This document shows positions 3,591-38,883 of a stretch of 45,521 nucleotides of DNA, piece by piece. Made by a program: the position numbers and the translations under genes. Where the stretch lies: positions 1 through 45,521 of the forward strand of contig JAFEAI010000245.1 of the NCBI GenBank assembly GCA_018266475.1. The letters run 5' to 3'. The DNA is from Bacteroidota bacterium (GTDB lineage: Bacteria > Bacteroidota > Bacteroidia > Flavobacteriales_F > PHOS-HE28). Under the pieces are notes generated by a model. That model did no database searches, was not told where the DNA came from, and saw only the letters and a list, made by a program, of their open reading frames with translations. Positions within the stretch are counted from its first letter, which is position 1. Each line of letters starts with the position of its first letter.

Positions 3591-4166
3591 TCAGCCCTCA
3601 ATGGCCGCGACAAGGCGGTCGGTGATGTGGTCGATGGAACCCATGCCATCGATGCGCCTGAGCTTGCCCTGCGCCTTGTAGTAATCCTTCAGCGGGGCCG
3701 TCTTGGCCTCATATTCGCCGATGCGCTTGCGCACCACCTCCTCATTGCGGTCGTCCGGCCTGCCGCTGGTGGCACCGCGCCCCAGCAGGCGCTTCACCAG
3801 TTCCTCCTGCTCCACCTCCAGGGAGAGCATCACGGTGATGCCGCTTCCGAGCTTCTCCAGCATGGTGTCCAACGCCTCGGCCTGGGCCCGGGTACGCGGG
3901 AACCCGTCGAAGATGAAGCCCTTTGCGCGCGGCTCCTCCACCACGCGGTTGCGGATCATGCCCACCACCACCTCGTCCGGCACCAGTTCACCGGCGCTCA
4001 TCAGTTCCTGGGCCTGCTTTCCGAGCGGTGTTTCGGCCTGTATCTCGGCGCGCAGCAGGTCGCCGGTGCTCAGGTGCTGCAGCCCGTAGCGGTCCATAAG
4101 AAATTTGCTCTGGGTGCCCTTGCCCGCCCCCGGAGGGCCGAAGAGCACGATGTTGGTCTTGTTCAT
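3591..4166 (-). CDS. adk: Adenylate kinase
   Basis: Catalyses ATP + AMP = 2 ADP in the cytosol. The 191-residue protein has the P-loop GPPGAGKGTQSKF at residues 10-22, the AMP-binding LSTGDLLRAEI and the FDGFPRTRAQAE motif. The lid region (LLGRGATSGRPDDRNEE) has no zinc cysteines and is short. This is the usual Bacteroidota form. It lies 30 bases after hpt and 24 bases before obg on the same strand. Confidence 0.97.
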   Translation of the reverse strand: MNKTNIVLFGPPGAGKGTQSKFLMDRYGLQHLSTGDLLRAEIQAETPLGKQAQELMSAGELVPDEVVVGMIRNRVVEEPRAKGFIFDGFPRTRAQAEALDTMLEKLGSGITVMLSLEVEQEELVKRLLGRGATSGRPDDRNEEVVRKRIGEYEAKTAPLKDYYKAQGKLRRIDGMGSIDHITDRLVAAIEG

Positions 4167-4196
4167 CTCGGATGGCGCAAGCCGCGCCGGATTGAT

Positions 4197-4730
4197 TCAA
4201 CTGTTGACGATCCGGTAGATGCCCGGTAAGTTACGGCCAAGGCCATCATGGTCCAGCCCGGAACCCACCACGAAGAAGTTGGGCACCTCCATGGCCACGA
4301 AGTCGATCGGCAGGTCCTTCTTGTACACGTCCGGCTTCAGCAGCAGGCTGGCGATGGCGATGCTGGCCGGGCGCTTTTCCCGCAGGGCCTCCACCACGTG
4401 CATCACCGTATTGCCCGTGTCAACGATATCCTCCAGCACCACCACATGCCGCCCGGCAATGCTCTCCTGCAGCCCGATCAGCTGCTTTACGGAGCCGCTG
4501 CTGCGCGTGCCGTGGTAGCTGGCCACCTTCACGAAGGAGATCTCGCAGGGGAAGGCGAGGCGCTTCATCAGCTCGGCCGCGAAGAAGTAGCTGCCGTTGA
4601 GCACGCCCAGGAACAGCGGCATCAGTTCGCCGTACTGCGCCGCCACGCGGGCCGCCACCTTGTCTATGGCGGCATCCAGTTCGGCCGGGCCGATGTACGG
4701 TTCAAATCGCTCGTTGTGCAGCGTTACCAT
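4197..4730 (-). CDS. hpt: Hypoxanthine phosphoribosyltransferase
   Basis: Purine-salvage enzyme that transfers phosphoribose from PRPP to hypoxanthine or guanine. The 177-residue protein has the PRPP-binding loop VVLEDIVDTGNTV (about residues 95-107), the FVKVASYHGTRSSG flexible loop and C-terminal VVGSGLDHDGLGRNLP. The frame stays open well upstream, but the conserved fold begins at MVTLHNERFEPYIG and a promoter box (4747-4754) lies 17 nt before this ATG, so the short start was chosen. It is the first gene of the minus-strand run down to the phosphatase and diverges from the gene at 4830. Confidence 0.93.
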   Translation of the reverse strand: MVTLHNERFEPYIGPAELDAAIDKVAARVAAQYGELMPLFLGVLNGSYFFAAELMKRLAFPCEISFVKVASYHGTRSSGSVKQLIGLQESIAGRHVVVLEDIVDTGNTVMHVVEALREKRPASIAIASLLLKPDVYKKDLPIDFVAMEVPNFFVVGSGLDHDGLGRNLPGIYRIVNS

Positions 4731-4746
4731 GGGTGCAAGAAGGGGC

Positions 4747-4754
4747 CGAAGGTA
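4747..4754 (-). promoter_or_regulatory. Bacteroidota -7 box for hpt
   Basis: On the minus strand the sequence reads TACCTTCG, 7/8 to TAnnTTTG. It ends 17 nt before the hpt ATG. No convincing -33 element was identified. Confidence 0.5.
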
Positions 4755-4782
4755 GCCATCGGCGGCAGCCGCCGCCCCGGAA

Positions 4783-4796
4783 GCAAGTCTACTTGC
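4783..4796. promoter_or_regulatory. 14-bp palindrome in the hpt / beta-barrel divergent region
   Basis: GCAAGTCTACTTGC: two perfect 6-bp arms around CT, in the 99-bp space between divergent starts at 4730 and 4830. The right arm contains the TTG that lies 21 bases before the plus-strand -7 box. A dimeric repressor could therefore block that promoter. This is inference from symmetry and position only. Confidence 0.35.
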
Positions 4797-4816
4797 GGGC
4801 GTTCGCTGCGGAACCC

Positions 4817-4824
4817 TACATTCG
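4817..4824 (+). promoter_or_regulatory. Bacteroidota -7 box, predicted leaderless start at 4830
   Basis: TACATTCG matches TAnnTTTG at 7/8, with a TTG at 4793-4795 as a possible -33 element 21 bases upstream. The box ends 6 nt before the ATG, so the transcript should begin at or next to the start codon. Confidence 0.5.
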
Positions 4825-4829
4825 GACCG

Positions 4830-5645
4830 ATGCAGAGACGCTCCACCCTTCTGATCGCCAGCCTGCTGCCCGCCGCCCTGCTGGCCGGCGGCGAACCGAT
4901 CCCCGCCAGCGCCCGCTTTGCCGGCATGGGCAATGCCGCCGCCACCCTTACCGGCCTGTGGTGTACCAGCGCCAACCAGGCGGGCCTGGCCGGCCTGGAG
5001 CAGGCCACCGCGGGCGCCTTCTACCAGCAACACTGGCTTTCGCCCGACCTGGCCATGCAGGGCCTGGCCTTCGCCCTGCCGCTGCGCGCGGGCACCTTCG
5101 CCGTGAGCGCCGGCTCCTTCGGCAACAACCTCTACGCCCAACGCACCTTCGGCCTGGCCTATGCCATGAAGCTGGGCGACGGCCTGCGCGCCGGCGTGCA
5201 ATTGGATTACCTGAACATCCGGCTCGGCGAGAACTACGGAAGCACCGGCGCCTTCACCGCCGAGCTGGGCGTGCAGGCCAGGCTAACCGAACGCCTGTGG
5301 ATCGGCGCCCACCTGTACAACCCCAACCGCGCCAAGTTGGGGGGGCCGTACGCCGAACATGTGCCCACCGTGCTCGGCGCGGGCCTCTCCTACCGCTTCA
5401 ATGATGAAGTGATCCTCTGCGCCGAGGCCAGCAAGGACATCGACCGCCAGGAACAATACCGCGCGGGCGTGGAATACCGCCCCACAAAGGCGCTCTTCCT
5501 GCGCACGGGCATCAGCACCGGGCCCGCGCGGGCGCACTTCGGCGTGGGCGTGCAGGTGGGGCAGGTGGACATAGACCTTGCCGCCGTGGTGCGATCGCAG
5601 CTCGGCTTCACCCCCATGGTGAACCTCAACTACCGCTTCAAATGA
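4830..5645 (+). CDS. PorV/PorQ-like small outer-membrane beta-barrel protein
   Basis: A 271-residue protein with an N-terminal signal sequence (LLIASLLPAALLAGG). The mature part alternates polar and aromatic/glycine residues like a membrane beta-barrel and ends NLNYRFK, a C-terminal aromatic strand as seen in outer-membrane proteins. The segment ASARFAGMGNAAATLTGLW resembles the start of PorV/PorQ-type proteins found near T9SS genes. The frame is open far upstream through the hpt region, but the promoter box and signal peptide fix the start here. It overlaps the next gene by 4 nt (ATGA), so the two barrel proteins are probably made together. Function is unknown; PorQ-like is a resemblance, not a proven assignment. 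Confidence 0.78.
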   Translation: MQRRSTLLIASLLPAALLAGGEPIPASARFAGMGNAAATLTGLWCTSANQAGLAGLEQATAGAFYQQHWLSPDLAMQGLAFALPLRAGTFAVSAGSFGNNLYAQRTFGLAYAMKLGDGLRAGVQLDYLNIRLGENYGSTGAFTAELGVQARLTERLWIGAHLYNPNRAKLGGPYAEHVPTVLGAGLSYRFNDEVILCAEASKDIDRQEQYRAGVEYRPTKALFLRTGISTGPARAHFGVGVQVGQVDIDLAAVVRSQLGFTPMVNLNYRFK

Positions 5646-7819
5646 AACGGGCGCTCCTCGTGCTGGCCACCTGGTGCGCCTGCCTGGCAGCCGCACAGGC
5701 ACAGCGGGATATTTCGCCCGAGCTGCGGGACATGATCGAACAGCGCTTGAGCGCCGTGGCGGAACAAACCGCGGAAGGAAGCGACGTGGACCTCTCCGAG
5801 CTGGCCGACCAGCTGCTTGACCGGCTGAACGACCCCATCGACCTCAACCACACCACTGCCGCGGAGCTTGGCTCCCTGCACCTGCTTTCCGACCTGGAGA
5901 TCGCCGCCATCCTGGACCACATCCGCCGCTTCGGCAAGTTCATCAGCATCTATGAACTGCAAGCCGTGGACGGCCTCGACCTGGGCACCCTGGAACTGAT
6001 CCGCCCCTTTGTAATGGTGAGCGGCGAAGGAAGCTCGCGCACCCCGCTGAAGACCATGCTCACCAAGGGCCGCCACGAGGTGCTGCTCCGGTCGCAGATC
6101 AACATTGAGCAACGCCGGGGCTTCCTGGGCCGAGATCCCTTCAACAGCCCCTACCGCTATGCCAGCGGCGCTCCGCTGCCCAATGTCAGCGACCCCGCAG
6201 TAATGGACTCCCTGCGCCGGAACAACAAGGTATACCTCGGCAGCCCCTGGAAGCTCTACACCCGCTACCGCTACCAGTACCGGCGCAACATCGACTTCGG
6301 GATCACCGGCGAAAAGGATGAGGGCGAGGAATTCTTCAAAGGCACGCAGAAGCAGGGTTTCGACTTCTATTCCGCGCACCTCTTCCTGCGGGACATCGGT
6401 CCCTTCAAGGCCGTGGCCCTCGGCGATTACCAGGCCCAGTTCGGCCAAGGCCTCACCTTCTCCAGCGGCCTCTCCTTCGCGCGCAAATCGGCATACACCA
6501 TGAACATCGACCGCAACGCACCCGGCCTGTTCCCCTATGCCAGCGTGAACGAAAACCAGTTCCTCCGCGGGGCCGGGGCCACCATGGGCTTGGGCAAGCG
6601 CTTCGAGGGCACCGCCTTCATCAGCCACAAAAAGTACGATGCCAACGTGGTGGCCTCCGTGGACACCTCCTTCGGCGGCACGGACCCCGACCTGGTCACC
6701 TTCAGCTCCTTCCAGGAGGACGGCTACCACCGCACCTACGCCGAGCTGGCCAAGAAGAACGCCCTTGATGAGTTCATCTACGGCGGCCACTTCCAGTACC
6801 GCGGCAGCCGCGCACAAGTGGGCGCCACCGCCGCACAGGTAACCTTCGGCCACGCATTGGACAAGACCAACGTGCAGCCCTACAACCAGTTTGAATTCCT
6901 CGGCAAAACAAACACCACCTACGGGCTGGACTGGAAGGTGCCCTACCGCAACATCGTCTGGTTCGGCGAAGCGGCACACAGCGCCGGCGGCGGATCGGCC
7001 GGCGTTACCGGGCTGCTGGCCGCGCTGGACAAACGCTTCTCACTGGCCCTGCTTTACCGCGACCTGCAGCGCAATTTCCACGGCCTCTACAGCAGCGCCT
7101 TCGCCGAAGGAAGCAGCCCCTGGAATGAACGCGGACTGTACACCGGCATCGAAATAAAACCCACGCGCCAGTGGGTGTTCAACGCCTACTTCGACCAGTT
7201 CGCATTCCCCTGGCTGCGCTACCAGACCAACGGCCCCAGCGACGGGTACGAGGCCCTCGGCCAGCTTACCTGGACGCCTTCGCGCGGCGTGCAGCTCTAC
7301 GCAAAGGCCCGCCGGCAGGTGAAGCCGCGCAATACCGGCGAAGCCCTGCCCGGCGTGCTTCCTCTGGTGGACACCCGCCAGGACAACTTCCGCTTCAACG
7401 CCAGCTACCGCGTAAGCCAGGACGTAACCCTGCACACCCGCGTGGAGCACGTGCAATACCGCCAGGGCGCGGAAAAACCACAGCAAGGCTTCCTCGTCTA
7501 CCAAGACCTGGTACACCGCCCCATGCGCGGCAAGCTGGAGTTCACCGGCCGCATCATGCTGTTCTCCACCGACAGTTACGATGCGCGCCTCTATGCCTTC
7601 GAGAGCGACGTGCCCGGCGTGTTCAGCCTGCCGCCCATCTATGGCCGCGGCATGCGCTGGTACGCCATGCTGCGCTGGTCCGTGGCGCGCCACATCGACC
7701 TGTGGGCACGCTACGGCGCCACCTTGTACACGGACCGTGATGTGATCACATCGGGCCTGCAGGAAATAGCCGGAAGCCGCAGAAGCGACCTGAAGATGGA
7801 GCTCCGCCTGAAGTTCTGA
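5642..7819 (+). CDS. Helix-hairpin-helix outer-membrane protein
   Basis: A 725-residue protein with signal peptide MKRALLVLATWCACLAAAQAQ. Residues about 60-125 hold two ComEA-like helix-hairpin-helix units (DLNHTTAAELGSLHLLS and GKFISIYELQAVDGLD). The remaining 550 or more residues look like a large beta-barrel rich in Tyr, Gly and Arg, with repeated YRYQYRR-type strands and a final MELRLKF. Such HhH-barrel fusions are common in Bacteroidota and have no settled function; DNA handling at the outer membrane is possible but unproven. It is coupled to the upstream barrel gene by a 4-nt overlap. Confidence 0.85.
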   Translation: MKRALLVLATWCACLAAAQAQRDISPELRDMIEQRLSAVAEQTAEGSDVDLSELADQLLDRLNDPIDLNHTTAAELGSLHLLSDLEIAAILDHIRRFGKFISIYELQAVDGLDLGTLELIRPFVMVSGEGSSRTPLKTMLTKGRHEVLLRSQINIEQRRGFLGRDPFNSPYRYASGAPLPNVSDPAVMDSLRRNNKVYLGSPWKLYTRYRYQYRRNIDFGITGEKDEGEEFFKGTQKQGFDFYSAHLFLRDIGPFKAVALGDYQAQFGQGLTFSSGLSFARKSAYTMNIDRNAPGLFPYASVNENQFLRGAGATMGLGKRFEGTAFISHKKYDANVVASVDTSFGGTDPDLVTFSSFQEDGYHRTYAELAKKNALDEFIYGGHFQYRGSRAQVGATAAQVTFGHALDKTNVQPYNQFEFLGKTNTTYGLDWKVPYRNIVWFGEAAHSAGGGSAGVTGLLAALDKRFSLALLYRDLQRNFHGLYSSAFAEGSSPWNERGLYTGIEIKPTRQWVFNAYFDQFAFPWLRYQTNGPSDGYEALGQLTWTPSRGVQLYAKARRQVKPRNTGEALPGVLPLVDTRQDNFRFNASYRVSQDVTLHTRVEHVQYRQGAEKPQQGFLVYQDLVHRPMRGKLEFTGRIMLFSTDSYDARLYAFESDVPGVFSLPPIYGRGMRWYAMLRWSVARHIDLWARYGATLYTDRDVITSGLQEIAGSRRSDLKMELRLKF

Positions 7820-7834
7820 CCCCTTTGCCGCCGG

Positions 7835-8026
7835 CTACTGCGGGGGCACCATCACCCCCGAATGGTCGGGCACCGCGTTCTCCCGCTTCTCCTTGTGCGA
7901 GGTGAGCACGATCACCGTGACTCCCACCACGAAAAGCGCGATCATCATCCAGAACATGAAGAACACGGCGCGTGTATCATTGGCCTTTCGCGTTGTTTTC
8001 GGGGCTTCCCGCTGCATGGTCTCCAT
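7835..8026 (-). CDS. Small single-pass membrane protein
   Basis: A 63-residue protein with a basic N-terminus (METMQREAPKTTRKAND), one transmembrane helix (AVFFMFWMMIALFVVGVTVI) and a short polar tail ending VMVPPQ. No family is recognised. The frame extends to an ATG at 8071, but a promoter box at 8050-8057 (minus strand) lies inside that extension, so the ATG at 8026 is preferred. It is convergent with the HhH protein gene, 15 bases away. Confidence 0.6.
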   Translation of the reverse strand: METMQREAPKTTRKANDTRAVFFMFWMMIALFVVGVTVIVLTSHKEKRENAVPDHSGVMVPPQ

Positions 8027-8049
8027 GGCCGTCCGGTATTTTGGCAACC

Positions 8050-8057
8050 CGAAGGTA
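8050..8057 (-). promoter_or_regulatory. Bacteroidota -7 box for the small membrane protein
   Basis: TACCTTCG on the minus strand, 24 nt before the ATG at 8026. It decides the start choice for that gene. Confidence 0.4.
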
Positions 8058-8154
8058 GGGAATCGCCGCACCGCTCAACCTGCGTTCGCTCCTTCCCGGC
8101 GGAATTCCTTGAAGCAGCGGAAACCATGCGCGACGCGATTGAGGGAAAAGGGGT

Positions 8155-8282
8155 GAGAGGATGAGAGGATGAGAGGATGAGAGGATGAGAGGATGAGAGG
8201 ATGAGAGGATGAGAGGATGAGAGGGTGCGAGGATGAGAGGGTGCGAGGATGAGAGGGTGCAAGGGTGCAAGGGTGCAAGGGT
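8155..8282. repeat. Octamer tandem repeat (GAGAGGAT)n
   Basis: Eight perfect copies of GAGAGGAT (8155-8218) are followed by eight degenerate copies that alternate GAGAGGGT, GCGAGGAT and GCAAGGGT (8219-8282), 16 units in all. The copy number of such perfect short repeats usually varies between strains. The array ends 28 bp before the pirin promoter box. The period of 8 is not a multiple of 3, so it is unlikely to be coding. Confidence 0.95.
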
Positions 8283-8310
8283 GAAAGGAGTGGGCGCTTC
8301 AAACGCGTAG

Positions 8311-8318
8311 TACCTTGC
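8311..8318 (+). promoter_or_regulatory. Bacteroidota -7 box for the pirin gene
   Basis: TACCTTGC, 19 nt before the ATG at 8337. It lies just downstream of the octamer array, so array length changes would move sequence upstream of this promoter. Confidence 0.5.
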
Positions 8319-8336
8319 AGGCATCCAATCATCCAC

Positions 8337-9221
8337 ATGTCCAATATCGGATTGATCATTGAGGAACGCCCGCGCACGGTGGGCAACTTCATGGTGGGGC
8401 GCCTGCTGCCCTTCCGGCACAAGCGCGCCGTGGGCCCGTTCGTTTTCATCGACCACATGGGCCCGGTGAAAATGAACGACCATGAAAACGTGGACATCGG
8501 CCCCCACCCGCACATCGGGCTCAGCACCCTCACCTATCTCTTCGAGGGCAACATGATGCACCGCGACAGCTTAGGCACTGAAGTGGAGATCACGCCCGGG
8601 GCGGTGAACTGGATGACCGCAGGCGGCGGCATCGTACACAGCGAACGCACGCCCGACCGCCTGCGCCAGACCGACAAGCACATGCACGGCCTGCAGATCT
8701 GGGTGGCCCTGCCGAAACACTTGGAGCGCATGCCGCCTTCCTTCCACCACGTGGAAGCAAAAGCGCTGCCCGGCTGGGAGGCCGATGGTGCCCGCTACAA
8801 GCTGATCGCCGGCGAAGTGCTCGGGCACCGCTCGCCCGTGCCGGTACACAGCAAGCTGTACCTGCTGGAGATCCAATGCGACGCGGAGCACGAGGTAAAG
8901 CTCAGCGGTGAACTGTACGGGGAAACCGGCCTGTACATCCTGCATGGCGCCGTGCATGCCGAGGGCGAGGAGTTCGGGCCGCGCCGCATCCTGGTGGCAA
9001 AGGACACGGCCCGCTGCGGATTCCGCATGGCACCAGGCACCTCCGTGTACCTCTTCGGCGGCGAACCCTTCCCGGAGGAGCGCCTGATCTACTGGAACTT
9101 CGTGGCCACCGACCAAGCTACCATAGATGAAGCCAAGCAGCGGTGGCGGCGGCTTGAGTTCACAATGCCGCCCCGTGAGCACGGCCCGGTGCCCCTCCCC
9201 GGTGAACGCTGGCCTGCCTGA
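8337..9221 (+). CDS. Pirin family protein
   Basis: A 294-residue bicupin. The N-terminal cupin has the pirin signature DHMGP (residues about 39-43), the metal ligands in IGPHPHIGLSTLTYLFEG and the glutamate/histidine-bearing GGGIVHSERTP. The C-terminal cupin (YKLIAGEVLG through GTSVYLFGGEPFPEERLIYWNFV) is also complete. Pirins bind iron; some bacterial members are quercetin dioxygenases and others are redox-sensing regulators. The role here cannot be told from sequence. The start follows a clear promoter box by 19 nt; the longer open frame upstream runs into the octamer repeat and is rejected. Confidence 0.92.
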   Translation: MSNIGLIIEERPRTVGNFMVGRLLPFRHKRAVGPFVFIDHMGPVKMNDHENVDIGPHPHIGLSTLTYLFEGNMMHRDSLGTEVEITPGAVNWMTAGGGIVHSERTPDRLRQTDKHMHGLQIWVALPKHLERMPPSFHHVEAKALPGWEADGARYKLIAGEVLGHRSPVPVHSKLYLLEIQCDAEHEVKLSGELYGETGLYILHGAVHAEGEEFGPRRILVAKDTARCGFRMAPGTSVYLFGGEPFPEERLIYWNFVATDQATIDEAKQRWRRLEFTMPPREHGPVPLPGERWPA

Positions 9222-9278
9222 CAACGCACAACAACGCCGCCCTGCTTGTTCCTGCTACGCCCGCAATTCACCACGACC

Positions 9279-9674
9279 ATGAAATACACAGTAAATGCAC
9301 ACATCGGCCGCGACCATTACAGAACGGAGATCCGAACCGCGACACAATTGATCATAGCGGACGAGTCCTTCAGCAATGGCGGCCAGGACCTGGGTTTCTG
9401 CCCGCATGAACTGCTTATTGCCGCCCTGGCCGGATGCACCAACGCCACGCTGCGCATGTATGCCGACCGCAAGGAATGGCCGCTGGAAGCCGTGGACACG
9501 CGCGTGGAGATCGAGCATGGAGACACCTTTGACCAAACGCGCATCCACCGTGTCATCCGCCTCACCGGTCCGCTGACCACCGAGCAGAAGGACCGCCTGC
9601 TGCAGATCGCCAACCGCTGTCCCATCCACAGAACCCTCTCGGGCGACCTTGCGGTCAGCTCGGAACTGGCGTAG
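9279..9674 (+). CDS. OsmC family peroxiredoxin-like protein
   Basis: A 131-residue OsmC/Ohr-fold protein. Both redox cysteines are present: the first in LIAALAGCTNATLRMYAD and the second in IANRCPIHRTL. That spacing and the CPIH second motif fit the OsmC-like branch that reduces organic hydroperoxides. The start follows about 57 bases of intergenic DNA after pirin, and both genes may answer to oxidative conditions. No clear -7 box was seen; TACGCCCG near 9255 is poor. Confidence 0.88.
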   Translation: MKYTVNAHIGRDHYRTEIRTATQLIIADESFSNGGQDLGFCPHELLIAALAGCTNATLRMYADRKEWPLEAVDTRVEIEHGDTFDQTRIHRVIRLTGPLTTEQKDRLLQIANRCPIHRTLSGDLAVSSELA

Positions 9675-9690
9675 CCCCGGCAAAGCGTCT

Positions 9691-10161
9691 TCACCGCGTG
9701 CCCCACTCCTCCACGCCTTCCTGCGCGTTCCGGGCCTCACGCACCTTGCGCACGTTCGCCTCCACCTCCCGCAGCTGGCGGGCCAGCACCGCGCGGGTCG
9801 CTTCGTTCAGGTCCGCACTGTTAAGCACCTCTATGTAGTGGTTGATCAACACCCGCTCCTGCTTCTCGCATTCCACCATCACGTTCACGTCGCTGGTGTC
9901 ATTCACCGCATCGCGGAACGCCTGCACAACCCTATGCAACGCCCCGTGCGCCGTGCCGGACGGAGCTGCGCTTGAACCGTGCTGCACCAGGTCGCGCTCC
10001 AACTCGCCTTCCAGCTCCTTGCGCTCACCTGCGATCTTCAACAACAGCTCTTTCGTGCCTGCACCTTGCACGCGCCCTGCGGTGGCCACATACTCCCGCC
10101 GACTGTCTTCCAGCAGCCCATGAATTTCATGCACCGCCTTCACTTGCTCCTTGGTATGCAT
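9691..10161 (-). CDS. PA2169-type four-helix-bundle protein (DUF2383)
   Basis: A 156-residue, almost wholly helical, charged protein with no signal peptide. The pattern VKAVHEIHGLLEDSRREYV, then LLKIAGERKELEGELERDL and a late HYIEVLNSADLNEATRAVL, matches the ferritin-like PA2169/DUF2383 family. Members are found in stress contexts, but no biochemical activity is established. The frame extends upstream to 10281, but MHTKEQVKAVHEIHG is where the family begins. It is convergent with the OsmC gene. Confidence 0.8.
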   Translation of the reverse strand: MHTKEQVKAVHEIHGLLEDSRREYVATAGRVQGAGTKELLLKIAGERKELEGELERDLVQHGSSAAPSGTAHGALHRVVQAFRDAVNDTSDVNVMVECEKQERVLINHYIEVLNSADLNEATRAVLARQLREVEANVRKVREARNAQEGVEEWGTR

Positions 10162-10353
10162 TGTCGCTCTTTTGGCGTGGTCCCTGCCATCTTCGGGCCG
10201 CATTGCGCGCAAGGGCGGAACCAGCCCCCGGGAGACCGCCAAGGTGAAGTGTTTTCCCAACATGGGGAATTGCAGCCACAACCGCAGGCGGCATCAGCAG
10301 CACAGGGAACCGCCATGCCGACATGGCATACTTTCTGCCCGGCGCTGCACGCC

Positions 10354-10572
10354 ATGTACAAGGTTATCAGCATCGCCTTCCTCATCACTGCGACGCTTTT
10401 TGCAGTCGCCGGCATGCAGGAATTTCGGGGATCCCTGCAACTGTCGGGTGCGGACCTGACGGCCTACAACGAGGCCGTTCATCCTTAGATCAACCTCGCA
10501 GGCACCGGCGTGTGCCTCCTGCTGGCCATCGTGCTTTGGATGAAGCATCCGAAAGCCGATGCGCCAGTGTGA
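10354..10572 (+). pseudogene. Two-TM small membrane protein gene interrupted by an in-frame TAG
   Basis: From the ATG at 10354 the frame gives 44 residues with one transmembrane helix (VISIAFLITATLFAVAGM), then a TAG at 10486-10488. The same frame continues for 27 codons with a second helix (NLAGTGVCLLLAIVLWM), a charged tail (KHPKADAPV) and a TGA at 10570-10572. The two halves read as one 71- or 72-residue hairpin membrane protein broken by a single amber codon, perhaps a CAG-to-TAG change. A functional 44-residue one-helix product or a sequencing error are the alternatives. No family is recognised. Confidence 0.5.
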
Positions 10573-10652
10573 TCGCCATGCGGCCGGTGCCACTTGCACC
10601 GCACGGGCATTGGGCGAACCGCAGCAGCGTTGGAAGATCGCGGCGAACATCG

Positions 10653-10660
10653 TTCCTTTG
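10653..10660 (+). promoter_or_regulatory. Bacteroidota -7 box for the DksA-like gene
   Basis: TTCCTTTG, 7/8 to TAnnTTTG, ends 8 nt before the ATG at 10668. It predicts a very short leader and supports this start over the longer open frame. Confidence 0.45.
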
Positions 10661-10667
10661 CAACGCA

Positions 10668-11123
10668 ATGGAAACTACAGCGCACAACGCGGGCAATCCG
10701 CGGTATTCCGCCGAAGACCTGAAGGAGTTTGAGGCATTGATCCACGCCAAGCTCGCCAAGGCGGAAGAGACACTTCAATTGGACAAGGATTCGCTCCTGC
10801 GCCTTTCGGCAAACTCCACGGACGACACCTACCTCGGCCAAAGCGGGCTTGAGGACGGCACGGCCATGATGGAACGCGAGGACCTCACCCGCTCGGTGAT
10901 GCGCCAGGAGAAATTCATCAGCCAGCTAAAGGCCGCACTAGGGCGCATCCGCACCGGGGAATATGGCATTTGCCGCATTTCGGGCAAGCTCATCCCCAAG
11001 GAACGCCTGCGCCTGGTGCCGCACGCCACACTTACCGTGGAGGCCAAGAATGATCGCCTGGAACCCGTGCCCGAGCCTTCCACTACCGTGAACGACCTTC
11101 CGGCGGAAGAAGACCTCCTTTGA
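10668..11123 (+). CDS. TraR/DksA family transcriptional regulator
   Basis: A 151-residue coiled-coil protein with the DksA-type C-terminal module. In well-known DksA the module has four zinc cysteines; here YGICRISGKLIPKERLRLVPHATLT keeps the backbone motif but only one cysteine, and the second CxxC is replaced by TVEAK. This cysteine-poor version is familiar in Bacteroidota. The long helical hairpin spans about residues 15-105. The likely role is binding the RNA polymerase secondary channel. Whether it responds to ppGpp is unknown. Confidence 0.88.
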   Translation: METTAHNAGNPRYSAEDLKEFEALIHAKLAKAEETLQLDKDSLLRLSANSTDDTYLGQSGLEDGTAMMEREDLTRSVMRQEKFISQLKAALGRIRTGEYGICRISGKLIPKERLRLVPHATLTVEAKNDRLEPVPEPSTTVNDLPAEEDLL

Positions 11124-11153
11124 GCGCAACGCGGGGGAAGCTCTTGCGGCCGT

Positions 11154-11483
11154 TCACTTTCCCGGCTCCCCGTCCGTCCCTTCCCTGCGTGCCTTTCGCT
11201 CGGCCGCCTCGCTCATGGCCGCCTTTCGCTTGCGGCCCGGCGTTTTTATGCCCACCGTGCTCTGGGCGCGGCGCACCTTCTTCTTGCCGCCTGGCGTGGG
11301 CATGTGTTCCGGAAGCTGGATCACCTGCTCCTCTTTTCCTTCTTCATCCTCCTTCGCGACCGGTATAGGCATGTGCTCTGGCAGCTGGATCACCCCTTTG
11401 CCCGCCTCCTCCATCTTCGCCTCCTCCCCGGCCTTCCCTTTCCCGGGCGTTGCCGCCTTCTCCCTTTCGTCCTTGGTTGCCAT
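11154..11483 (-). CDS. Low-complexity protein with duplicated QLPEHMP motif
   Basis: A 109-residue, soluble, probably disordered protein of unknown family. The N-terminal part is mixed-charge and rich in Lys, Glu and Ala. The motif VIQLPEHMP occurs twice, about 24 residues apart, followed by IP or TP. The C-terminal third is strongly basic (KKKVRRAQSTVGIKTPGRKR) and could bind nucleic acid. The start MATKDEREK was chosen because the only earlier candidate is a TTG. It is convergent with the DksA-like gene. The repeated motif makes a random frame unlikely, but this is not a confident assignment. Confidence 0.6.
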   Translation of the reverse strand: MATKDEREKAATPGKGKAGEEAKMEEAGKGVIQLPEHMPIPVAKEDEEGKEEQVIQLPEHMPTPGGKKKVRRAQSTVGIKTPGRKRKAAMSEAAERKARREGTDGEPGK

Positions 11484-11568
11484 GGTCCTGTTGTATTGCC
11501 TTGCCAAATTCCCCCCGAATACTGTGCCGGAAGTGCGGTGCCCGATAAAAACCCTCCATGAAATGCCC

Positions 11569-11576
11569 TAACCTTG
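11569..11576 (+). promoter_or_regulatory. Bacteroidota -7 box, predicted leaderless start at 11581
   Basis: TAACCTTG ends 5 nt before the ATG of the S1/P1 nuclease gene. The distance predicts transcription starting at the A of the ATG. Confidence 0.55.
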
Positions 11577-11580
11577 CAGC

Positions 11581-12348
11581 ATGAGCCCAATAAGGTTGAT
11601 CCTGTTCTGCGTGTTGCTGCAACCCGCCGCCCTCTTTGCATGGGGCCGCACCGGCCACCGCACGGTGGGGGCCATTGCGGAAGACCACCTTTCACGTAAG
11701 GCGCGCAAGGCCGTCCACCGCATCCTGGGGAATGAATCCATGGCCATTGCCGCCACCTGGATGGACGACATCAAAAGCGACCACGCCTATGACGGCATGC
11801 GGGATTGGCACTGGGTGACCATTCCCGACGGCAGCACGTATGCGCAGGCGGAGAAAAATCCCAAGGGCGACGCGGTGGAGGCCATCGGCCGCATGGCAGC
11901 AGCGCTGAAGAGCGACACGCTGACGCACGACCGCCAGGTGTTCTGCCTGAAAGTGCTGATCCACCTGGTGGGTGACCTGCACCAGCCGCTGCATGTAGGC
12001 CGCGGCGATGACAAGGGCGGCAATGATTTCCAGGTGCGCTGGTTCAAGAAGGGATCCAACCTGCACAAGGTGTGGGACAGCGAAATGATCGATGGCAGCC
12101 AGTTGAGCTACACGGAACTTGCCGCCTGCACGGACCACGCCACCGCGCAACAGATCAAGCAATGGACAAGGGGCACCGCCGTGGATTGGGCGCAGGAAGC
12201 CACTACGCTCCGCACGGCCATATATCCGCCGGCACCGGGGGCCGATCTGGGCTACGAATACCAGTACCTGCACTGGACCCTGGTGCAGCAGCAGCTCCTG
12301 AAGGGCGGCATCCGGCTGGCCGGCATGCTCAACGCCATCTTCGGATAG
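11581..12348 (+). CDS. S1/P1 family zinc nuclease
   Basis: A 255-residue secreted nuclease. After the signal peptide (LILFCVLLQPAALFA) the mature protein would begin WGRTGHRTVGAIAE, with the N-terminal Trp that S1/P1 enzymes use as a zinc ligand. Further zinc ligands are in AATWMDDIKSD, HWVTIP, LIHLVGDLHQPLHVG and NLHKVWDSEM. All expected ligand positions appear intact, so it should cleave single-stranded DNA or RNA or remove 3'-phosphates in the periplasm or outside the cell, probably for phosphate or nucleoside scavenging. Confidence 0.93.
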   Translation: MSPIRLILFCVLLQPAALFAWGRTGHRTVGAIAEDHLSRKARKAVHRILGNESMAIAATWMDDIKSDHAYDGMRDWHWVTIPDGSTYAQAEKNPKGDAVEAIGRMAAALKSDTLTHDRQVFCLKVLIHLVGDLHQPLHVGRGDDKGGNDFQVRWFKKGSNLHKVWDSEMIDGSQLSYTELAACTDHATAQQIKQWTRGTAVDWAQEATTLRTAIYPPAPGADLGYEYQYLHWTLVQQQLLKGGIRLAGMLNAIFG

Positions 12349-13495: not shown

Positions 13496-13856
13496 CAGGC
13501 ACGAGCGATACTTGGAGTGGAGACCGCCAAGACGCGGAGCGCGCCAAGGGAGCCTCACGCGAAGACGCGAAGGCGCGAAGGATGGCATAGCTCAAAGAGG
13601 AACCGCCAAGACGCGGAGCACGCCAAGTAATGCCTCACGCGAAGACGCGAAGGCGCGAAGAATGCAGGCTCACGCGAAGACGCGAAGGCGCGAAGAATGC
13701 CATAGCGCAAGGAGGAACCGCCAAGACGCAAAGGGCGCCAAGAATGCGACCTCACGCGAAGACGCGAAGGGCGCGAAGAATGCCCTAGATCAATGAGGAA
13801 CCGCCAAGACGCGAAGGCGCGAATGGGTGCGGTAACGGACAAGAACGATAGTTGAA
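13486..13856. repeat. Two-unit repeat array flanked by imperfect direct repeats
   Basis: Between 13517 and 13825 two kinds of unit alternate: GAACCGCCAAGACGCGGAG-type (near 13520, 13599, 13713, 13797) and CACGCGAAGACGCGAAGGCG-type (near 13553, 13633, 13669, 13750). The block is bracketed by a direct repeat, 13486-13516 and 13826-13856, identical at 25 of 31 positions. The left copy includes the last codons and stop of the LTXXQ-like gene; the right copy is followed at once by a terminator. The units are nearly identical with no variable spacers, so it is not a CRISPR array. Confidence 0.85.
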
Positions 13857-37947: not shown

Positions 37948-37970
37948 CGTATAGGACAGGACGTACACGA

Positions 37971-38155
37971 GAATGCCTGGGGACAGGATTACAGGATGTA
38001 CAGGAGAATGCCTGGGGACGGGATTACAGGATTCACAGGAGAATGCCTGAGGACGGGATTACAGGATTCACAGGAGAATGCCTGAGGACGGATGTACAGG
38101 AGAATGCCCGAGGACAGGATTACAGGATTCACAGGAGAATGCCTGGGGCGGGATT
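37971..38155. repeat. 35-bp tandem repeat array (left arm of inverted pair)
   Basis: Units beginning GAATGCCTGGGGACAGGATT start at 37971, 38006, 38041, 38076 (a short, 26-bp copy) and 38102, with a partial copy from 38137. The core GGGACAGGATTACAGGAT is shared, in reverse complement, with the array at 38697-38877. The two arrays bracket the GxxExxY gene. Neighbouring units are almost identical, so there are no CRISPR-type spacers. Confidence 0.9.
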
Positions 38156-38196
38156 GATGTGCCGCGGCTGGTTGCAAGGCCCTTGCCACTCCGTGC

Positions 38197-38580
38197 TCAT
38201 GCCGTTTTGGGGCGATAGATCCGGTTTTTGCGCTTGAACTTGAGCTGATCTGAGCCGAAGTTGAAAAGCAGCCCCAGATCGAGGCCGGTGGCGGTGAGGT
38301 AGTTCACCACTTGCACCTCATGGATGGAATGTAGGGACTGCACCGCTTTGAGCTCCACGAGAACGGCTCCGTTCACCACCATGTCCGCCACGAATTCCCC
38401 CACGACGATGCCGTTGTAATGAACCGTTAACCGGCATTCACGATCTACCGCCAGGCCAGCGCTACGCAATTCATGCGCAAGTGCATTTTGGTAAACTGAC
38501 TCCATGAAGCCAGGCCCCAATGCGCCATGGACCGCCATGGCACAGCCGATGATCTTTCCGGTCAACTCCCCGTGTTCCAT
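38197..38580 (-). CDS. GxxExxY protein, PD-(D/E)XK nuclease-like
   Basis: A 127-residue protein with the name-giving motif GFMESVY at residues 24-30. The core EFVADMVVNGAVLVELKAV gives Asp66, Glu76 and Lys78, a D-x9-E-x-K pattern like the PD-(D/E)XK nuclease fold; EVQVVNYL adds a conserved-looking Gln. All these residues are intact, so it may be an active nuclease, although no activity is established for the family. The frame runs upstream through the repeat array to 38841, but a -7 box 5 nt before 38580 fixes the short start. The basic tail (KFKRKNRIYRPK) may bind nucleic acid. Confidence 0.88.
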   Translation of the reverse strand: MEHGELTGKIIGCAMAVHGALGPGFMESVYQNALAHELRSAGLAVDRECRLTVHYNGIVVGEFVADMVVNGAVLVELKAVQSLHSIHEVQVVNYLTATGLDLGLLFNFGSDQLKFKRKNRIYRPKTA

Positions 38581-38584
38581 GTAG

Positions 38585-38592
38585 CCAATGTA
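38585..38592 (-). promoter_or_regulatory. Bacteroidota -7 box, predicted leaderless start at 38580
   Basis: TACATTGG on the minus strand ends exactly 5 nt before the GxxExxY ATG. The repeat array begins about 105 bp further upstream. Confidence 0.55.
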
Positions 38593-38696
38593 AGCTGTCC
38601 TTCCGGTAGCACCACTTGGCCTCAGTTCGGCGCGTCCCTGCGTGGGCTTGGCCATGCTCTGCCTTCGATGTGTTGCCCGCGCCACTCCAATGCTGC

Positions 38697-38877
38697 CATC
38701 CTGTTCATCCTGTAATCCTGCCCCAATCCTGTTCATCCTGTACTCCTGTCCCCAATCCTGTTCATCCTGTAATCCTGTCCCAATCCTGTTCATCCTGTAC
38801 TCCTGTCCCCAATCCTGTTCATCCTGTACTCCTGTCCCCAATCCTGTTCATCCTGTAATCCTGTCCCAATCCTGTTC
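38697..38877. repeat. 28/29-bp tandem repeat array (right arm of inverted pair)
   Basis: Seven copies of a unit AATCCTGTTCATCCTGTA followed by (A/C)TCCTGTCCC(C). Copies start near 38697 and at 38725, 38754, 38782, 38811, 38840 and 38868. Two versions occur: TGTAATCCTG with CCC (28 bp) and TGTACTCCTG with CCCC (29 bp). The reverse complement holds the same ACAGGATTACAGGAT core as the array at 37971-38155. The array lies in a 354-bp space that otherwise holds only the promoter of the GxxExxY gene and the reductase terminator. Confidence 0.92.
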
Positions 38878-38883
38878 AACGCA

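Follow-up and report, generated by a model that had tools for sequence, protein, structure and literature searches.

A GxxExxY nuclease gene between inverted arms of phased heptamers: a probable copy of a widespread, REPIN/RAYT-like element

A small nuclease-like gene enclosed by two tandem-repeat arrays in opposite orientations raises the question of whether gene and repeats constitute a single unit and, if so, of what kind. Such a locus is found in the window analysed here, i.e. the whole stretch of 45,521 nucleotides. The gene and its repeats look like one mobile or repeat-spreading unit, because the matched repeats are mirror images of each other and the block is cleanly present or absent between species. 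The reading favoured here, with a probability of roughly 0.65, is that the unit represents a widespread and apparently undescribed class of elements, autonomous and REPIN/RAYT-like, composed of a GxxExxY nuclease gene and inverted arms of phased heptamers.

The features of the locus are collected in Table 1. The first-pass annotation had described two arrays sharing the core ACAGGATTACAGGAT in opposite orientations around the gene, and a pattern search of the window bears this out: with up to two mismatches, four matches were found in the left array, all on the + strand, and six in the right array, all on the − strand, while none lay outside the two arrays (0.03 expected from shuffles). The inverted match between left and right arrays had a score of 31. 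Both are plain tandem repeats (TRF) of an arm of 29–35 bp containing three ACAGGAT-like heptamers, and both point towards the gene, whose start codon is likely to be the ATG at 38580 (an in-frame alternative lies at 38655). The neighbouring genes encode a TANGO2-like protein and ribonucleotide reductase (RNR). Neither a cas operon nor an array of unique spacers at regular intervals was seen at the locus, and an Rfam scan gave no family above the gathering score.

Table 1. Positions of the gene, its two arrays and the whole unit in the window
Feature	Position	Strand	Description	Basis
Left array, 3′ side of gene	37956..38145	+	~5 tandem copies of ~35-bp arm ACAGGATTACAGGATTCACAGGAGAATGCCTGAGG, inward-reading	TRF, pattern search
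GxxExxY gene (PDDEXK_3)	38197..38580	−	127 aa from ATG 38580	TIGR04256/PF13366, conservation, AF2 model
Right array, 5′ side of gene	38698..38878	−	6.3 copies of ~29-bp arm, inward-reading on − strand	TRF, pattern search, unit-chain scan
Whole unit, ~0.92 kb	37956..38878	.	Between TANGO2-like (NRDE) gene and ribonucleotide reductase gene	Empty-site comparison

The assignment of the gene to the GxxExxY family, also made in the first-pass annotation, is upheld by scores of 144 bits against TIGR04256 (cut-off 35) and 137 bits against PF13366 (cut-off 22), the latter being the only Pfam family above its cut-off. The motif and active-site residues are G24, E27, Y30, D66, E76 and K78 (numbered from ATG 38580), with Q90 and Y94 as further marked residues, so that the three candidate catalytic residues named earlier, Asp66, Glu76 and Lys78, are indeed intact. 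In an alignment of 49 diverse relatives E27, Y30, D66 and K78 are invariant and Q90 is nearly so; E76 was nearly invariant in a first set of 20 sequences. An AlphaFold2 model of the protein (pLDDT 93.6) had as its best structural match in the PDB SSO0001, a Cas4 protein (Foldseek E value 6e–4; Z 10.8 over 104 residues, rmsd 3.6), followed at lower rank by LHK-exonuclease, lambda exonuclease, MGME1, AddAB and Hjc. These matches to a predicted structure, together with the D..ExK..QxxxY motif, place the protein near the RecB/Cas4 branch of the PD-(D/E)XK nucleases, as a minimal form. The fold and this motif are shared with the Cas4, RecB and lambda-exonuclease enzymes. The GxxExxY protein differs from them in its length of 127 aa, in having no conserved cysteine cluster in its alignment consensus, in a family-specific N-terminal GPGxxExxY helix, and in standing alone with its repeats, without cas genes. 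The PADLOC match to Cas4 was weak (E=0.058), and no relative was found in a sequence search of the PDB or in phage records. Rpn (recombination-promoting nucleases) and TnsA of Tn7 belong to the same superfamily and are linked to recombination or transposition; their Pfam families are different ones, TnsA requires partner proteins, and we know of no dedicated flanking arms at Rpn genes. The GxxExxY protein is under purifying selection, dN/dS between orthologues being 0 to 0.13. Stops occur in 7 of the approximately 89 full-length copies in the genus, and fragments are frequent.

The source genome contains four GxxExxY genes, each flanked by repeat arrays whose inverted partners lie on the other side of the gene, and each with a different unit (ACAGGAT, CACCGAT, CACGGAT or CGCAGAT). 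The arrangement thus belongs to the gene family and not to one repeat sequence. The expectation that ACAGGATTACAGGAT would mark GxxExxY genes at large did not hold: it is the repeat type of the window copy only, and elsewhere in the family different units are found in this layout. A single universal repeat is likewise ruled out, as unit types differ by clade.

A motif-free test was applied to three sets of loci, with 560 bp upstream of each gene compared with the reverse complement of 560 bp downstream and a score of at least 16 counted as an inverted flank. In the genus (45 genomes), inverted flanks were found at 85% of 61 usable GxxExxY genes and at 0.4% of 467 control ORFs from the same loci, the median best match being 21 and 10, respectively. 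The corresponding values were 45% vs 3.6% in a Bacteroidota sample, and 62% (of 80 genes) vs 1.1% in a named multi-phylum set. In this last set, arms were detected by one criterion or more in 15 of the 16 named phyla, although many of the phyla contributed just one or two loci. A second test made use of the unit pattern C[AG]CN[AGC][AC][GT], chained at 8–12 bp. Inward chains of at least two units were present on both sides at 66, 41 and 60% of the GxxExxY genes in the genus, phylum and named sets, compared with 2.0, 0 and 0.3% of control ORFs (Fisher p 2e–37, 8e–18 and 2e–39); the motif-free test is the cleaner of the two, since the unit pattern was drawn up after inspection of the same data. 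Chance and general repeat richness are ruled out by the control ORFs of the same loci (467, 192 and 281) and by orientation controls. Depending on the set and criterion, recognizable arms on both sides are absent at approximately 15–55% of GxxExxY genes.

It is apparent that the arms share a common architecture, (TTAACC) followed by three to four CRCRRAK heptamers 8–12 bp apart; in column frequencies the typical arm start is T-T-A-A/C-C and then C-R-C-R-R-A-K, and a GTAG/CGTC-type tag at the arm start is absent from them. On either side, approximately 30–180 bp separate the arm from the gene, and the first unit of one arm is separated from the first of the other by a median of 491 bp (5–95% range 424–638). 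A GGTGAAT heptamer repeat was also seen in a coding-looking region approximately 700 bp from another GxxExxY gene (L003, 2478–2551).

The two arms of a locus resemble each other in phasing, and both vary with the protein. The first two unit spacings were equal in both arms at 23 of 30 loci in the genus set, 9 of 11 in the phylum set and 19 of 27 in the named set, compared with means of 6.4, 1.6 and 3.8 when arms were shuffled among loci. When mapped on a protein tree of the 63 copies from the genus, a count that takes in syntenic orthologues, repeat type changed 17 times, as against a shuffled mean of 37.6, and none of 200 shuffles gave so low a value. For a comparison of arms with protein identity, all pairs sharing any homologous neighbour gene were removed, and 10,428 pairs remained. 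Similar arms were found in 0–1.6% of these below 50% protein identity, in 24–28% at 65–80% (reversed-orientation control, 9–13%) and in 62% above 80% (13 pairs; control, 23%). Flanks of shared ancestry are ruled out as the cause of the match between type and protein, the trend having persisted after this removal. Even at unrelated positions in the genome, the closer two proteins are in sequence, the more their arms resemble each other.

The first-pass annotation had also proposed a search for orthologous loci without the whole unit, and these exist, both at the window's own locus and at other sites. The gene order nadA, TANGO2-like gene, RNR is kept in G033 and G034, where only ~120–140 bp, with no repeats and no GxxExxY unit, separate the latter two genes. 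In G042, the same gap holds a gene-less inverted pair of ACAGGAT arrays with a spacer of ~26 nt that includes a palindrome. At a second site, a cassette of 456 bp, starting with ACCGCAGAT and ending with ATCTGCGGT, follows directly after a stop codon, and another species has 8 nt in its place (flanks 80 and 83% identical). In another genus, a cassette is continuous in three genomes (G098, G144 and G070), and in three others (G193, G113 and G109) the alignment is interrupted each time at query positions 1459–1460 and 1911–1912, an absence of ~451 bp between two genes; in G082 an arm is kept at this site and the gene has decayed. Outside the window, block size is about 450–650 bp. The block is therefore a discrete insertion, present or absent, with inverted ends and an empty-site counterpart. 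No target-site duplication was visible at the empty sites compared, where flanks are only 68–83% identical. Many copies in the genus have been inherited in place, as syntenic pairs, and the copies within the source genome have diverged, so element activity may be rare or lost.

Repeats of the same design also occur without the gene. Chains of at least three units, no more than 150 bp apart and with no gene between them, numbered 40 inward, 8 outward and 33 on the same strand in 2.45 Mb, a count in which some pairs adjoin cassettes and a few loci overlap. Two gene-less pairs were folded as single-stranded DNA and gave hairpins with z values of –7.9 and –9.4. The triple-unit pattern was found in 31 of 148 Bacteroidota genomes, species that are not phylogenetically independent, and 30 of the 31 carry PF13366, compared with 75 of 148 overall (p=1e–9); read backwards, the pattern was found in none of the 148. 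AACG-type repeats are commoner in members of the genus with an AACG-type gene or remnant (p=0.0004, matches at gene sites excluded), G024 being an exception with many AACG repeats and only broken GxxExxY genes seen. Distant arrays agreed with a resident cassette in both the type of unit and its spacing in 18 cases, compared with 4.9 expected (p=0.0006), and in the genus alone, more weakly, in 13 compared with 6.8 (p=0.07); these figures refer to loci not chosen by pattern, and inclusion of the pattern-chosen loci gives p=0.013 for the genus. Remnants of the gene lie beside arms in G082, G006 and G022. The earlier proposal that repeats and gene are one unit is supported by the inverted arms at most GxxExxY genes, across 15 named phyla, and by the gene-less copies in gene-bearing genomes.

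ACAGGAT pairs number 70 in the source genome, 27 in G019 and at most 10 in any other, with none in 33 of the 45. G019 is a draft genome that has no gene matching its 27 pairs, its only detected GxxExxY gene being of another type; two of its loci (L287 and L288) are gene-less inverted pairs of the ACAGGAT type. The first-pass annotation had also considered that the same repeats might be just as common beside unrelated genes. This holds in so far as ACAGGAT arrays, all one-directional, occur on 12 other contigs of the source genome, mostly with no GxxExxY gene nearby, but not for the repeats as a whole. They are near-confined to GxxExxY genomes (30 of 31), and the arrays away from the gene are therefore read as satellites. 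Six source-genome arrays (L274, L275, L276, L281, L284 and L285) lie inside a second dispersed repeat that ends in GGGAGTTCCCTCAAGGTCTCCCGAAGGGGACCTTGCAGG. At another locus (L329, in G168; 3736–12125), many four-unit arms with a spacing of 10-9-12 and a single orientation lie downstream of a GxxExxY gene, at intervals of 245 to several thousand bases.

The distribution of gene-less copies bears on two other explanations, both of which are considered improbable. According to the first, the upstream repeats are binding sites at which GxxExxY, or some other factor, regulates transcription of the gene, and the copy downstream serves as a terminator or stabilizing hairpin. The arms do lie at promoter and terminator positions, and selection on the protein is compatible with a host function, but gene-less inverted pairs, and arrays remote from all GxxExxY genes, would be unexpected, as would exact presence or absence of the whole block, arms included, and a downstream arm that mirrors the upstream one with equal unit spacing. 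The second supposes an independent family of repeats, into whose inverted pairs GxxExxY genes insert as homing-like hitch-hikers. Gene-less pairs are numerous, and that in G042 lies exactly at the site of the window gene; this pair is equally explained by gene loss, however, as the remnants beside arms elsewhere illustrate, and pre-existing targets would not be expected to follow the protein phylogeny in type and spacing or to be nearly missing from genomes without GxxExxY. Least probable is a domesticated housekeeping nuclease that no longer moves its arms and uses them as dispersed chromosomal sites for repair or for replication-fork or recombination control: low dN/dS, long retention at orthologous positions, the Cas4/lambda-exonuclease/AddAB-like fold and the precedent of RAYTs, which are single-copy and appear incapable of self-mobilization (PMC3116915), are in its favour. 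Turnover is a better fit than a fixed function, however, to patchy presence, decayed copies with stops, a block present in one species and absent from a related one, and repeat types specific to the locus.

An autonomous element of gene and arms has its nearest parallel in the REPtrons, i.e. RAYT (TnpA-REP) genes with their REPs and REPINs, in which a DNA-processing gene stands beside cognate repeats whose types co-vary with the protein (PMC3116915, PMC8266576). The likeness extends to the small size of the gene, to several distinct single-copy genes per genome, to intergenic location and to dispersed gene-less inverted pairs, cognate repeats at a spacing of up to 150 bp being inward in 40 cases and outward in 8. 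The enzymes differ, however, GxxExxY being a PD-(D/E)XK protein and RAYT an HUH tyrosine transposase, and so do the repeats, since GxxExxY arms are direct-repeat iterons of three to four heptamers without a REP palindrome or its GTAG/CGTC tag. Because both enzyme family and repeat structure fail to agree, the unit is not a REPtron by membership; in addition, both of its arms closely bracket the gene. Miniature inverted-repeat elements (MITEs) and small insertion sequences, too, form discrete blocks whose ends are inverted, exist both with and without a gene, and have empty sites. The GxxExxY unit differs from these in having no known transposase and no evident target-site duplication, and in arms that are phased iterons, often expanded into tandem arrays.

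We infer that the block is mobilized and that its arms are cleaved by the nuclease. The enzyme may recognize the phased heptamers of its own arms, either as duplex iterons or as a long single-stranded hairpin, and would cut there; repair or replication would then copy the block, and gene-less satellites, into intergenic sites. Such an element would be functionally analogous to RAYT and REPIN, the enzyme being an unrelated one. Slippage or unequal exchange could give rise to tandem arrays like those of the window, where each arm would since have been expanded into a 5–6-fold array. A broader proposal, to which we give slightly less than even odds, is that lone Cas4-like GxxExxY nucleases drive an unrecognized, multi-phylum form of selfish DNA, in which arm–gene–arm units and REPIN-like hairpin satellites are mobilized by cutting of their own arms and specificities co-diversify.

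No function is known for the annotated family GxxExxY/PDDEXK_3, and many bacterial genomes contain repeats such as AACCACAGAGGACACAGAG; the present finding connects the two. In the literature searched, a body that excluded bioRxiv and most subscription journals, GxxExxY was mentioned in two papers and only as an annotation, no element with GxxExxY arms was described, and searches with the repeat strings gave no relevant paper. The finding provides the family with a testable substrate, accounts for one group of the repeats and hairpins that lie between bacterial genes, and suggests that the task performed by RAYTs with REPINs has been solved a second time, independently. As the likely DNA target of this 127-aa nuclease is visible next to the gene that encodes it, the family would offer biochemistry a ready collection of natural specificity pairs.

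Two other repeats were observed in the window. At 8154–8288, an octamer tandem repeat, GAGAGGAT, drifts into AGGGTGCA, and its design is unlike that of the arms. At 13525–13824, a gene-less array of ~300 bp in one orientation has the design of GxxExxY arms, with arm types ACCGCCAAGACGCGGAGCGCGCCAAG and TCACGCGAAGACGCGAAGGCGCGAAG alternating. The four GxxExxY genes detected in the source genome lack these units, which are present at genes of G030, G033 and G017 (L106, L118 and L122), so the array may consist of orphan satellites.
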